A DNA stretch of 64,000 nucleotides. It comes from Thermoanaerobaculia bacterium. GTDB lineage: Bacteria > Acidobacteriota > Thermoanaerobaculia > Gp7-AA8. This document shows, piece by piece, positions 22,440 through 55,062 of this stretch. The stretch is from NCBI GenBank assembly GCA_017883205.1, contig JADGNZ010000008.1, positions 1 to 64,000 on the forward strand. Reading direction: 5' to 3'. A program made the translations under genes and the position numbers. Under the pieces are notes generated by a model that made no database searches, had not been told where the DNA came from, and was given only the letters and a program-made list of their open reading frames with translations. How positions within the stretch are numbered: the first letter of the stretch is position 1; each line of letters starts with the position of its first letter.

Positions 22440-22810
22440 TGCTGAGAAAAATTTGCCGAACTTTGAGGACGATTTCCTCGAAGTTGAGGAGGATTTCCTG
22501 GAGATTGAGGAAAATTTGCCGAACTTTGAGGACCTTCGTCCTCAACTTCAGGACGTTTGTCATCAAACTTCAGGACCTTGGTCATCAAACTTCAGGACCT
22601 TGGTCATCAAACTTCAGGACCTTGGTCATCAAACTTCATGACCTTGGTCATCAAACTTCATGACCTTTGTCATCAAACTTCAGGACCTTTGTCATCAAAC
22701 TTCAGGACCTTGGTCATCAAACTTCATGACCTTGGTCATCAAACTTCAGGACCTTGTCATCAAACTTCAGGACCTTTTGTCCTCAAGTTGAGGACCTTTT
22801 CCTCGAGCTC
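22440..22810. repeat. Array A2: 22-nt tandem repeat between HEAT gene and respiratory operon
   Basis: Ten good units begin at 22560 and recur every 22 nt (one is 21 nt), core TCATCAAACTTCAGGACCTT; degenerate copies flank them on both sides. Because 22 is not a multiple of 3, each reading frame cycles through all three phases and repeats every 22 residues. The minus-strand unit begins ATGACCAAGGTCCTGAAG, an ATG-led open stretch as in the other arrays. Several translated frames stay open across the array but are low-complexity and unlikely to be genes. Confidence 0.92.
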
Positions 22811-32139: not shown

Positions 32140-32585
32140 CTCACAAATTTTGGGTCGGTGTCATCAAATGATTTGACTCGGTCAGCAAAAATTATGACTC
32201 GGGCATCAAATGATTTGACCGGGCATCAAAAGTTTTGACTCCGGCATCAAAACATTTGACTCGGCCATCAAAAGTTTTGACCCAGCCATCAAAAAATTTG
32301 ATTCGGTCATCAAAAGTTTTGACTCAGGCATCAAGAGATTTGACTCCGTCATCAAAAGATTTGATCCAGCCATCAAAATATTTGACTCGGCCATCAAAAC
32401 ATTTGATCCCGTCATCAAAAGATTTGACTCGGTCATCAGAACATTTGATTCGGCCATCAAAAGATTTGACTCGGTCATCAAAAGATTTGATTCGGCCATC
32501 AAGAGTTTTGACTCGGCCATCAAAACATTTGACCCACTGATCAAATGATTTGACTCGGCCATCAAAAGTTTTGACCCACCCAACA
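32140..32585. repeat. Array A3: 21-nt tandem repeat after the amidase gene
   Basis: About 20 imperfect 21-nt units with core ATCAAAAGATTTGACTCGG. The minus-strand unit starts ATGACCGAGTCAAATCTT and is open in frame, giving the repeated heptad MTESNLL. Both strands keep long open frames (over 100 codons) purely because 21 is a multiple of 3; I do not call them genes. The 125 bp between the amidase stop and the array hold an AT-rich degenerate lead-in. The array lies between two convergent genes. Confidence 0.95.
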
Positions 32586-42595: not shown

Positions 42596-44812
42596 ATGAA
42601 CGCCGATCCCCAACTCCTCGAACAGGCCCGCTCGTCCGATGCCGACGCGCGGCAGAAAGCGGCCTATCTCGTCGCGCACATGGTCGACGAGCGGAACTAT
42701 CCGCTGATGTTCGAGCTCCTCGGCGACAAGGATTGGCGCGTCCGTAAGACCATCGTCGACGGCCTGCTGCACGATCTGCAGCCCGAGGTCGTCACAGGTC
42801 TGCTCGATGCGTTGGCGGATGCCGAGAACGCAGGCAAGCGCAACTCCGCAACCGAAGCGCTGGTCAGGATTGGCGAACCTGCGATCAGGCCGATCGTCGA
42901 CCGTCTGCGCATCGAGAAAGACGTCGACGTCCGCTTGTCGCTCGTCAATCTCCTCGGCGACCTTCGCAGCAGCGACGCTTTCGACATCCTCGTCGAGTCT
43001 CTGGAAGGAGAGCCCGACATCAACGTCTCTTCGTCGATCGTCTCCTCCCTCGGCAAGTACCGTGATGCCGCGGCGTTGCCTCATCTCATGCGCGTTTTGA
43101 AGCGCGAAGATCTGTGGCTCAAGTTTCACGCCGTGGAAGCGTTTGGCGAGATCGGCGATCGGGCCGCGCTGCCCGCGATCATGCCGCTCTACGCGGAGAA
43201 GTCGCTTCGCAAACCGGTGCTGGAAGCGATCGGCAAGATTGCCGATGTCGGCACGGTCTCGTTTCTCCTGCGGATCATCGCGTCCGAGGAAAGGCTGAAC
43301 CTGACGGCGTTGCGAGCGCTCGTGAGGATTGCTGAGGCGAGCAAACCGAAGATCGTGGAACAGGCGGAACGAACGCTGATTCAGCGCAAGTTCCGCGAGT
43401 CCTTCCCGGAGTCGAAGATTGGTCCGCTCATCGATCACCTGCACGCTACCCCGAAGCGCGACGTCCGCTCGTTCATCATCAAATTCCTGGGATGGTCCGG
43501 CGACATGCGGGCGCTGCCGGTGCTGATGAACTGCCTGCAGCATCCCGACTCCGCCGAGACGGCTGCTCAAGCTCTGACCGACTTCGGCGACGGTGCCGTA
43601 CCGGCCGTTCTGGAAATGCTTCGCACCGCGGAAGAGGACGAGATCATCGCGCTGCTGTTGCGCGTGCTGAACGTCATCGGCGGCCGCGACGCCGGTCCGA
43701 ACATCCTCCCGCTCCTCGATCACGAAAACGCTCTGATCCGCCGCCTGGCGATCGAAACGCTGGGCGAGATCACTGACCCGCGCTCGATCGACTACCTGCT
43801 CGCGAAGCTCGACGACACCGACGTGGCGTCGCAGCAGGCCGCGGTCAACGCCATCTCCGGTCTCGTCGCCGCCTATCCGGAGAAAAAAGGCGAAGTCCTG
43901 ACCAGGATACGCAGGCTGCTGCAGGCGCCCTCGGTCCCCATGAAACTCAACTCTCTCTCCGTGTTCGTCAACATCCAGGGAGACGGGTATCACGACGAAT
44001 TGCTCCTGGCCTCGAAGGACAGCGATCCCGTAATCCGGCAGAAGGCCATCTCACTGATGGGGAAGTTCAGCGAAGAACGGTTCGGCGATCAGCTCGTGCT
44101 TTCGCTGACCGACGAAGCAACGGCGGTGCGTCTCGCGGCGATCAACGCCATCGTCCGGCATCTCCCCGCGCAAGGCCTCGATCCGTTGATCAGCGCTTTG
44201 GAAGACTCCGACATCTGGATTCGTACTTCTGCCGCGCAGGCGCTCGGCGAATACCGGCATCCGGATGCCTTGCAGCCGCTCATGCACCATCTCGCGTACG
44301 ACCTTCCACCCGTCCGCATCGCCGCGATCGAGGCGCTCGGCAAGTCGGGGGACGAGCGTGTGAAGGACGTGCTCTTCAACTGCGCTCACGAATCCGATCT
44401 CGAGATTCGCCGCGCCGCCATCCTCGCGCTGGGACGCGTGCCCGGTGACGAGGTCTTCGACTACCTGATGTTCGCGACGACGGATGACGATTGGCGTGTG
44501 CGCGCCGCGGCCGTGACCTCGGTTGCCGTTCGCGGCGATCTCACCGCGCTGCCGGCACTGCATGTGGCGCTGCAGGATCCGGATACCTACGTGCAGCAGT
44601 CCGCCGTCATGGCGCTCGACAAACTGCCGGATCGTTCGTCGTTTCCGCATCTGTTCCGAGCCCTGGAGAACAGCGCCATTCTCGACGAGGTCTCGGATCT
44701 CTTTGTCCGACACAAACAGTTCTACCGCGATCTTCTGGAGGAGGCGTGGCGCACGGCCGACAGCCGGCGCGAGGTGGTGATCGCGGCGATTCTGCAGGCA
44801 ATGAAGGGGTAG
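42596..44812 (+). CDS. Large HEAT-repeat protein of the chemosensory cluster
   Basis: 738 aa, all-helical, with about 20 HEAT repeats and no membrane segment. Repeats such as DWRVRKTIVDGLLHDL, DVRLSLVNLLGDLRS, LWLKFHAVEAFGEIGDRAAL and DWRVRAAAVTSVAV are clear. It is likely a cytoplasmic scaffold that binds signalling proteins. It is co-oriented between the zinc-ribbon receiver and CheR. HEAT proteins are also encoded by other genes in this window (22820, 52005). Confidence 0.9.
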   Translation: MNADPQLLEQARSSDADARQKAAYLVAHMVDERNYPLMFELLGDKDWRVRKTIVDGLLHDLQPEVVTGLLDALADAENAGKRNSATEALVRIGEPAIRPIVDRLRIEKDVDVRLSLVNLLGDLRSSDAFDILVESLEGEPDINVSSSIVSSLGKYRDAAALPHLMRVLKREDLWLKFHAVEAFGEIGDRAALPAIMPLYAEKSLRKPVLEAIGKIADVGTVSFLLRIIASEERLNLTALRALVRIAEASKPKIVEQAERTLIQRKFRESFPESKIGPLIDHLHATPKRDVRSFIIKFLGWSGDMRALPVLMNCLQHPDSAETAAQALTDFGDGAVPAVLEMLRTAEEDEIIALLLRVLNVIGGRDAGPNILPLLDHENALIRRLAIETLGEITDPRSIDYLLAKLDDTDVASQQAAVNAISGLVAAYPEKKGEVLTRIRRLLQAPSVPMKLNSLSVFVNIQGDGYHDELLLASKDSDPVIRQKAISLMGKFSEERFGDQLVLSLTDEATAVRLAAINAIVRHLPAQGLDPLISALEDSDIWIRTSAAQALGEYRHPDALQPLMHHLAYDLPPVRIAAIEALGKSGDERVKDVLFNCAHESDLEIRRAAILALGRVPGDEVFDYLMFATTDDDWRVRAAAVTSVAVRGDLTALPALHVALQDPDTYVQQSAVMALDKLPDRSSFPHLFRALENSAILDEVSDLFVRHKQFYRDLLEEAWRTADSRREVVIAAILQAMKG

Positions 44813-45081
44813 TGAAGCAGAGATCAGAGACTAGAGATCCGAGATCAGGAGAAGCAGTCGGTTTCCGATCTCTCGGCTCTGATCTCTGGAGTGAGAGAGA
44901 AGCAGTGATCAGAGACCAGGGATCAGAGATCAGGGTCAGGACAGCGTGTCGTCCTCAATCTCTGATCGCTTGTCTCCGATCACTTAGCAATGAGCATAGA
45001 GAAGTGATTGGAGACCAGAGATCCGGCTCGATGACGTGCATTCCTGATCTCTGATCTCTAGTCCCTGATCTCTGGTGTCCC
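44813..45081. repeat. Iterated GATCAGA/TCTGATC inverted element between HEAT and cheR
   Basis: Several blocks of AGATCAG words (44818-44860, 44896-44935) and their complements CTGATCTCTGATCTCT (45045-45078) fill the 269-bp gap. The period is 7 nt. The same word is used at 50511-50580 and 53969-54115. No gene can be supported in this stretch. Confidence 0.9.
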
Positions 45082-50282: not shown

Positions 50283-50504
50283 CTATTGCTCTCTCACCTT
50301 GTCGAGGATCTCGCGCTCGGTCGGGAAACGGCCTTCCTCCTTCTTCGAGAAGATGGCTTTGCCGTCAATCGAGACGACAAAGATTCCGCCGCTGCCGCGG
50401 ACGACCTCGCTGTCGATCCCGAATTCCCGTTTGATCTCAGCCACCAGACTGGAGGCTCGTGGGAGGTAGTTTCAAACGCCGCAGTAATCGATTCGAATGT
50501 GCAT
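50283..50504 (-). CDS. Selenoprotein W-like (Rdx family) with in-frame UGA
   Basis: 73 codons from ATG 50504 to TAG 50283, with a TGA at codon 11 (50472-50474). Read as selenocysteine, the start is MHIRIDYCGV-Sec-NYLPRAS and the rest is VAEIKREFGI, VVRGSGGIFVVSIDGKAIF and SKKEEGRFP. This is the Rdx fold pattern of SelW/SelT/SelH, redox thioredoxin-like proteins with Cys-x-x-Sec at their N-terminus. Downstream of the UGA a hairpin with apical GUC is at SECIS distance. It follows the PP2C gene. There is no Shine-Dalgarno. If the cell lacks Sec insertion this would instead be a pseudogene with a stop mutation, but the uninterrupted conserved remainder argues against that. Confidence 0.85.
50439..50457 (-). 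promoter_or_regulatory. Candidate bacterial SECIS hairpin
   Basis: Fifteen nucleotides after the UGA the message forms AGCC/GGCU and CCA/UGG stems separated by a U-U mismatch, with a GUC apical loop; the loop G is 23 nt from the UGA. E. coli fdhF has a similar placement and an apical GGUCU. The folding is by eye. Confidence 0.55.
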
Positions 50505-50510
50505 GGTTTT

Positions 50511-50580
50511 CGAGAGATCAGAGACAAGAGGTCAGAGATCAGGGCTTCTTGTCTCTGATCTCTGGTTCCTGATCTCTGCT
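50511..50580. repeat. Iterated GATCAGA inverted element before the SelW-like gene
   Basis: Left arm AGATCAGAGACAAGAGGTCA and right arm CTTGTCTCTGATCTCTGG are complementary over about 25 nt. It fills the gap between the phosphatase and the selenoprotein ORF, and uses the same word as 44813-45081 and 53969-54115. Confidence 0.85.
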
Positions 50581-51338
50581 TAAATCGTCTTCACCAGGAT
50601 CGCGGTCACGTTATCCAGCCCGCCACGTTCGTTGGCGGTATCGATCAGGTCGCGGCAAGCCTTTTCGAGGTCGTCGGCGTTGCCGGTCACGAGCTTGAGA
50701 ATCTCTTCTTCGGGAACCATGCCAGTGAGGCCGTCGGAGCAGAGGAGGTAGAAGTCGCCGGGCCGGCTGTCGATTTCGGAGGCATCGGGATTGACGGACA
50801 GAGCGCCGCCAAGGGCGCGCGTGATCACGTTTCGAAGAGGATGTTTTTCGGCTTCCGCTTCGGTGAGCATGCCGGCCTGCACCTGCTCGAAAACCCAGGA
50901 GTGATCACTCGTGATGCGGGTGATCTTACCGTCGCGGATCATGTAGGCGCGCGAGTCGCCCACATGGGCGACCGACATCTTGTCGCCGTCCGCCATGGCG
51001 GCAACCACGGTCGTGCCCATGCCGCGCAGGCGGGCATCCTTGCGCATTGCTTCGAGGACGCGGGTGTTGGCCATGCGTAGAGCCGCCATCAGCCGGTTCG
51101 TCGTCCGCGAGTAGTGTTCGTCGTAGGCGTGCGGCCACGTGCCGTCGTCTTCCTTCGTGTGGACGATGAACTCGGAGATCGAGTCTACGGCGATCCGCGA
51201 GGCGATCTCGCCGGCTGCGTGCCCTCCCATACCGTCGGCGACGAGGAACAACTTCGCCTCATCAGCGACGAGGAAGGAATCCTCGTTATGCTGCCGTTGC
51301 CGTCCGACATGTGTGAGGCCGTATGCCTTCACTTCCAT
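50580..51338 (-). CDS. PP2C-type serine/threonine phosphatase
   Basis: 252 aa. Motifs in order: HVGRQRQHNEDSF, VADGMGGHAAGE, GMGTTVVAA, VAHVGDSRAYM, SDHSWVFEQ, RALGG, SDGLTGMV and GGLDNVTAI supply the metal-binding aspartates. It reverses Ser/Thr phosphorylation by PknB-like kinases; none is in the window. ATG 51338 is followed upstream by a 3-bp gap to dnaJ. It is the fourth gene in a minus-strand unit of RodZ-like, HEAT-like, DnaJ and phosphatase genes. Confidence 0.95.
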   Translation of the reverse strand: MEVKAYGLTHVGRQRQHNEDSFLVADEAKLFLVADGMGGHAAGEIASRIAVDSISEFIVHTKEDDGTWPHAYDEHYSRTTNRLMAALRMANTRVLEAMRKDARLRGMGTTVVAAMADGDKMSVAHVGDSRAYMIRDGKITRITSDHSWVFEQVQAGMLTEAEAEKHPLRNVITRALGGALSVNPDASEIDSRPGDFYLLCSDGLTGMVPEEEILKLVTGNADDLEKACRDLIDTANERGGLDNVTAILVKTI

Positions 51339-51341
51339 TCC

Positions 51342-52004
51342 TCAGCCCTTTTTGAAAAGGGTAAACCCCTTTCCGCCTTCCTTCGCCTCACCACGCTGGC
51401 GCAATTCGGCCAGTGACGCACGGATTTCAGGATTGTCTGTGTCCCACTTTAACGCTTCCTCGAGATATCTCTCAGCTTTTGCGGTCAGTCCGGCGCGCTT
51501 GCAGATCGATCCGGCGTCTCTGAGAAACAGGGGATTGATCGGTTCGCGCTGCACCGCCGTCTCGATTGCCTGCACCGCCTGGCGGGAGTATGCCGGAATG
51601 CGGGTCGCTGCAAGCGCGAGGTAGTGAAAGGCTTTGCCATCCGCCGGATTGTGCTTCGCAGCCATGTCGAAGTTCTCGTACGCGGCGCTCATGTCACCTT
51701 CCTTGTACGCCTTGACTCCCCTCGACAAGTAGACCTTGGCTACCTGCACGAAATCAGCCGGACCCGTCGTCGCGCGCGATCCCGCCGAGCCGATCTCCGC
51801 ATCGTGCTGCTTGCGCCGGGCGGTATTCGTCAGCACGTTGACGGCTTCGGTCAGGGTCTGGAACTTTCGCTCCGCATCCGCCTTGTCGGGGCCCTTGTAG
51901 CGGTCAGGATGCTGCTCGCGGGCAAGCTTCCGGAAACGCTCCCGGATTTCCGGCTCGGAAGCGGAGCGATCGACTCCGAGCACTTCGTAGTAGTTGACCT
52001 TCAT
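51342..52004 (-). CDS. DnaJ-domain protein with TPR-like repeats
   Basis: 220 aa. J domain (residues 1-65) with the HPD motif at 32-34, no Gly/Phe or zinc-finger region, and a helical TPR-like C-terminus (about 100-205: YLSRGVKAYKEGDMSAAYENF, AIETAVQREPINPLFLRDAG). It should stimulate an Hsp70 for particular clients. It is directly adjacent to both neighbours (0 and 3 bp), indicating one operon. Confidence 0.92.
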   Translation of the reverse strand: MKVNYYEVLGVDRSASEPEIRERFRKLAREQHPDRYKGPDKADAERKFQTLTEAVNVLTNTARRKQHDAEIGSAGSRATTGPADFVQVAKVYLSRGVKAYKEGDMSAAYENFDMAAKHNPADGKAFHYLALAATRIPAYSRQAVQAIETAVQREPINPLFLRDAGSICKRAGLTAKAERYLEEALKWDTDNPEIRASLAELRQRGEAKEGGKGFTLFKKG

Positions 52005-53968: not shown

Positions 53969-54115
53969 TCCGAGAAGAGATCAGAGACTAGAGATCAGAG
54001 ACTAGAGATCAGAGACTAGAGATCAACGAGCAGGAGATGAGGCACTGATCTCTGATCTCTGGTCTCTAGTCTCTGGCACCTGATCTCTGGCCGCTGATCT
54101 CTCAGCTCTGTTCCA
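53969..54115. repeat. Iterated GATCAGA inverted element between RodZ-like and HEAT-like genes
   Basis: Left: AGATCAGAGACTAGAG repeated three times (53969-54022). Right: CTGATCTCTGATCTCTGG and variants (54045-54113). Arms can pair over 40 nt. The right end extends a few bases into the 3' end of the following CDS. Confidence 0.9.
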
Positions 54116-54845: not shown

Positions 54846-54889
54846 GTGCGCTCGCAAATAACTAGCACCAAAAACGGAAGCAATATGAA

Positions 54890-55062
54890 ATCAGATCACA
54901 TGAATGTGAAACCGGATCATATGAATGTGAAACCAGATCATATGAATGTGATCCCGGATCATATGAATGTGATCCCGGATCATATGAATGTGAAACGAGA
55001 TCACATGAACGTGATCTCGGATCACATGAACGTGAAACCAGATCACGTGAGCGGGAAGCCGG
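54890..55062. repeat. Array A4: 21-nt tandem repeat between divergent genes
   Basis: About eight 21-nt units with core ATGAATGTGAAACCGGATC. The plus-strand unit begins with ATG and stays open, giving HMNVKPD repeatedly. Several units have GATCATATGAATGTGATC, in which GATCA and TGATC are inverted. The 316-bp gap 54846-55161 holds this array, a hairpin at 55118-55136 and the downstream promoter; no gene. Confidence 0.92.

Follow-up and report, generated by a model that had tools for sequence, protein, structure and literature searches.

A stretch of 64,000 bp (the window) from the genome of a Thermoanaerobaculia bacterium, positions 1 to 64,000 of contig JADGNZ010000008.1 in assembly GCA_017883205.1, carries on its minus strand a short gene of the selW type which is interrupted in frame by a UGA codon. 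A hairpin lies just downstream of this codon, and the two genes directly upstream encode a phosphatase and a DnaJ-TPR protein. The features are the following:

50283 to 50504, minus strand: predicted selW-like selenoprotein gene of the Rdx/SelT-W-H family, 73 codons plus TAG
50472 to 50474, minus strand: in-frame UGA (predicted Sec), codon 11 and second half of the CxxU motif; TGA in 129/129 alignable matches from the class
50440 to 50456, minus strand: bacterial SECIS-type hairpin, from its fold and from pair and loop conservation against slid, shuffled and synonymous-codon controls
50580 to 51338, minus strand: gene for a PP2C-type Ser/Thr protein phosphatase, adjacent to selW on its upstream side (PF13672, 73.4 bits)
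51342 to 52004, minus strand: DnaJ-TPR protein gene, next upstream (PF00226, 68.8 bits)

With TGA read as Sec, the minus-strand translation runs from MHIRIDYCGVUN to LDKVREQ, ends at a TAG stop, and contains the motif C8-G-V-U11, in which the Cys is residue 8 and the UGA (50474 to 50472) is codon 11. A sequence-only reading made beforehand had placed the gene at these same coordinates, without a strand, and had numbered the Cys, the UGA and the TAG as they are found here. The middle motif which it had described as conserved, GSGGIFVVSIDG, is present in the translated protein; so is SKKEEGRFP, which had been taken for the end of the protein but lies 12 residues before it. A plus-strand reading of 50283 to 50504 was rejected, as the frame is unrelated and yields no Rdx protein. 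In the standard code the selW-like frame halts after codon 10, and the list of standard-code open reading frames of at least 60 aa has no entry in this frame; these two observations are what a true stop would produce, in which case what remains of the frame would be a pseudogene derived from an Rdx gene of the Cys type.

The protein belongs to the Rdx family, as it scores above the cut-offs of Pfam Rdx PF10262 (69 bits, cut-off 22.6) and of the NCBIfam SelT/W/H models TIGR02174 (61.2 bits, cut-off 34.2) and NF041051 (91.4 bits, cut-off 88). Searching the whole 6.37-Mb genome with the Rdx profile gave exactly one place, the selW-like gene itself (E 9.7e-16, with one TGA inside). In the window, 346 frames reach 60 aa or more if a single UGA is read through, and a CxxU motif occurs in 11 of these; a chance origin of the selW-like frame was considered and rejected, since against these 346 frames it is the sole Rdx place in the genome. 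Seven distinct sequences of solved structures are also matched, the best being 2fa8 (E 3.3e-10). The Rdx structures 2fa8 (Atu0228), 2oka, 2ojl, 2obk and 2p0g, which we take to be Cys forms, match residues 3 to 72 or 73 of the protein, and their chains are longer, with 103-108 aa compared to 73 residues here.

The conservation of codon 11 was analyzed in 147 sampled genomes of the class. A SelW-like homologue was found at E 0.001 or better in 129 of these, with 133 matches in total. In all 129 matches that could be aligned codon 11 is TGA, with a Cys three codons earlier, and neither Cys nor any other codon was found at this position among them. The frame continues downstream of the TGA in the relatives, the only one with a further in-frame TAG being that of genome G135, whose match lies at a contig start. 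The four matches outside the alignment comprise one whose translation reads CTS-TGA-GYGPRA (L157), one with TGC-GTT-TCT-TGA and the UGA in a shifted frame (L159), one cut at a contig end (L158) and one without the CxxU stretch (L147). Relatives with a stop at this codon followed by a decayed frame, the pattern named beforehand as contrary to a selenoprotein, did not occur among the 133 class matches. This conservation of the TGA and of the frame behind it, the lack of any Cys form in the class sample and the Sec machinery of the host genome all argue against a true stop followed by a pseudogene, which we regard as very improbable. Across 199 genomes sampled more widely from the phylum there were 65 matches in 63 genomes, 17 of which are class members already contained in the class count; 61 of the matches have one TGA and four have none. 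Of 12 phylum-sample loci that were read, 11 could be aligned (L169 gave no alignment and was excluded from the counts), seven with CxxU and four with CTQC. The four TGA-less matches read CxxC (CTQC-RWLLRAAW) at 33-38% identity and seem to form a subfamily of their own; a selA over the cut-off is present in three of the genomes that carry this form, but not in the fourth.

The sequence-only reading depended on the host genome being able to decode UGA as Sec, and all four genes of the machinery were found in the 6.37-Mb assembly (105 contigs, 99.73% complete, 0.7% contaminated). These are tRNA-Sec, or selC (71.4 bits, cut-off 47; anticodon TCA by ARAGORN), SelA (477 bits, cut-off 268), SelB (346 bits, cut-off 242) and SelD (367 bits, cut-off 125). 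The next ten matches of the tRNA-Sec model in the genome all fall below the cut-off, at 46.5 bits or less. We relied on the cut-offs and not on E 0.001 because at the latter threshold the tRNA-Sec, SelB and SelD models each match all of 14 control genomes; over the cut-offs the numbers are 5/14 for tRNA-Sec, 2/14 for SelB and 2/14 for SelD. The selD gene (L018:1501-2436 of the same genome) also contains a UGA in frame, in the context GGUACK. SelD selenoproteins carry Sec at the position with this context, and SelD of the host genome is probably itself a selenoprotein. A reading of codon 11 as a residue other than Sec, such as Trp or else Cys, whether through near-cognate read-through or through reassignment, finds no specific support in the data. 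It is set against the joint presence of tRNA-Sec with anticodon TCA, SelA, SelB and SelD, the in-frame UGA of SelD, the location of the UGA at the CxxU position and the conservation of the hairpin, and in view of these we give it hardly any weight.

The hairpin, AGCC-U-CCA-GUC-UGG-U-GGCU, folds into a stem of seven positions, one of them a U-U mismatch, that is capped by a GUC triloop, and one further A-U pair (50457/50439) lies outside the stem; as had been proposed, the loop is GUC and the distance from the UGA to the stem is 15 nt. No RNA family was found in the window by Rfam at its gathering score, so that the case for a SECIS rests on the alignment of the 129 rows, which were lined up by distance from the UGA. 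This register holds across the rows because the sixth codon after the UGA is Ala in 129/129. The rows are related, and their counts are thus not independent events; among the 116 distinct 45-base rows a standard pair is kept in 765/812 cells of the seven-position stem. When the partners were slid by 1-3 columns only 162 to 476 pair cells were kept, in a comparison for which the stem register had been chosen after seeing the slides (0.947 paired, as against 0.435 one column off); the chosen register is also the one in which the window sequence folds at minimum energy. Shuffling the 3' letters gave a mean of 743.6 pair cells (sd 1.6), with 0/1000 shuffles reaching the observed 765, and 300 resamplings of synonymous codons averaged 599 (sd 8.2), the largest value being 622. 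Stem changes on both sides are few: one pair changes from C-G to U-A in three rows or to G-C in two, and a second from C-G to G-C in four rows. A point against the selenoprotein reading is that the middle of the stem is U-U in this sequence (1/116 rows); it is U-C in 16 rows and G-C in 95. The loop begins with GU in 105/116 distinct rows, compared to a mean of 11.4 by synonymous resampling. At codon 19, which the loop overlies, 118/126 of the rows with Gly or Ser use GGT or AGT. Where it encodes Gly the codon is GGT in 73/81 rows (102/817 Gly codons elsewhere in these genes), and where it encodes Ser it is AGT in 45/45 rows (16/399 Ser codons elsewhere). The conservation of pairs, loop and codon 19 thus suggests that the hairpin is under selection as RNA, in addition to the selection on the protein.

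The SECIS of E. coli fdhF is a short hairpin some 11-15 nt past the UGA; its small apical loop contains a G-U, and its stem a bulged U. The hairpin described here shares the short stem and the G-U in a small apical loop, and differs from fdhF in having a mid-stem mismatch, U-U here and U-C in 16/116 rows, in place of the bulged U. The description in PMC1088965 of the bacterial SECIS as a hairpin immediately downstream of the UGA, with a small apical loop containing a G, agrees with a stem 15 nt after the UGA, a GUC loop and conservation at the RNA level.

Taken with the TGA in the relatives and the Sec machinery, the conserved hairpin supports the earlier view that the host decodes UGA as Sec, and the gene almost certainly encodes a SelW-like selenoprotein in which codon 11 is decoded under the guidance of the hairpin. 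We infer that Sec is actually inserted at this codon. In the mechanism that we propose, SelA would make Sec from selenophosphate supplied by SelD, and SelB together with tRNA-Sec would decode the UGA at codon 11, guided by the downstream hairpin. The product would be a thioredoxin-like Rdx protein of small size, and the probable role of its Cys8-Gly-Val-Sec11 pair is in thiol/selenol redox reactions with a partner protein.

The gene order upstream of selW is conserved. In a sample of 18 genomes of the host's family, two of them without a SelW match, the PP2C and DnaJ-TPR genes were found upstream in the same order in 16/16 SelW-bearing genomes. Measured with alignment residue 1 as the start of SelW, the spacing between PP2C stop and SelW start falls between -4 and 17 bases in 11/16, three of which show 4-base overlaps; in the remaining 5/16 it is 75 to 133 bases, this window having 75. 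PP2C gave no match in 14 other class loci with flanks of about 1.5 kb, and the other 103 class loci have flanks of 300 bases or less per side which could hardly show it. This gene order and these distances make it likely that selW is co-transcribed with the phosphatase gene; as regards function, they offer a suggestion of a link between the two. It is conceivable, if rather doubtful, that SelW works with the PP2C phosphatase, and perhaps with the DnaJ-TPR protein, as a selenol redox switch for phosphorylation or chaperone activity.

A partly palindromic repeat of the AGAGATCAGAG type was also observed in the window, with 22 matches of up to one mismatch compared to 1.6 expected, and it forms clusters at 50513-50578, 44692-45073 and 53976-54110. 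The first of these sits in the 75-base gap between PP2C and selW. In two relatives of the same genus the gap is 3 bases in one and 105 in the other; with 3, 75 or 105 bases within the genus the PP2C-SelW gap therefore varies, and it may gain inserts. A tandem array at 54882-55050 consists of 21-base units (AATGTGAAACCAGATCACATG) in about eight copies, and other arrays with units of 21-22 bases are found at 1-117, 22529-22798 and 32162-32575.

The distribution of Sec use in the class was addressed by searching for SelA, which is close to universal in the sample: a match was present in 138/147 genomes at E 0.001 (131 over the cut-off), some of these matches being fragments or very weak (G135, 18.5 bits), and in 107/108 of the genomes with a completeness of 90% or more and a contamination of 5% or less. 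Speaking against the Sec reading, eight SelW-bearing genomes gave no selA match, seven of them being 69-89% complete and one (G115) 95%. A selA match is present in 17/18 of the class genomes without a SelW match, and SelW is thus not the sole reason to keep Sec.

The gene is one more member of a bacterial selenoprotein family that has long been known, since the parts of PMC1088965, PMC1794560 and PMC2398784 which deal with SelW already describe it. Among sequences from the Sargasso Sea 48 SelW-like genes with CxxU were reported, all SelW there being bacterial as judged by their SECIS (PMC1088965, 2005), and a later account gives 427 SelW-like selenoproteins against 56 Cys homologues (PMC2398784, 2008). 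SelW-like proteins have also been counted among the families for which Sec-containing organisms have very few Cys homologues, or none (PMC1794560, 2006). As portrayed in these sources the family shares with our gene the N-terminal CxxU, the Rdx domain, an in-frame UGA with a SECIS just downstream, and the scarcity of Cys homologues in Sec-using bacteria. We see no defining difference; the lineage, a class of the Acidobacteriota, and the PP2C-SelW order are additions. For the Acidobacteria, PMC1794560 mentions four selenoproteins of three families, and three known selenoprotein genes are noted for the acidobacterium Occallatibacter riparius (PMC12013277); a search of the open-access literature found no paper on selenocysteine in Thermoanaerobaculia.

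The gene is a clear instance of a short selenoprotein gene that standard gene calling tends to overlook. The lack of any Cys replacement in the 129 alignable matches agrees with the view, expressed in 2006 in the treatment of the family in PMC1794560, that Sec is original in SelW-like proteins. The function of SelW was called unclear where it is discussed in PMC1088965, and the passage of PMC2398784 concerned with a PP2C-type phosphatase presents it as a fusion to peroxiredoxin, not with SelW. The conserved PP2C-SelW order gives a hint, open to testing, of what the partner of SelW may be; if true, the reading that joins it to the PP2C phosphatase and the DnaJ-TPR protein would name such a partner for a bacterial SelW.
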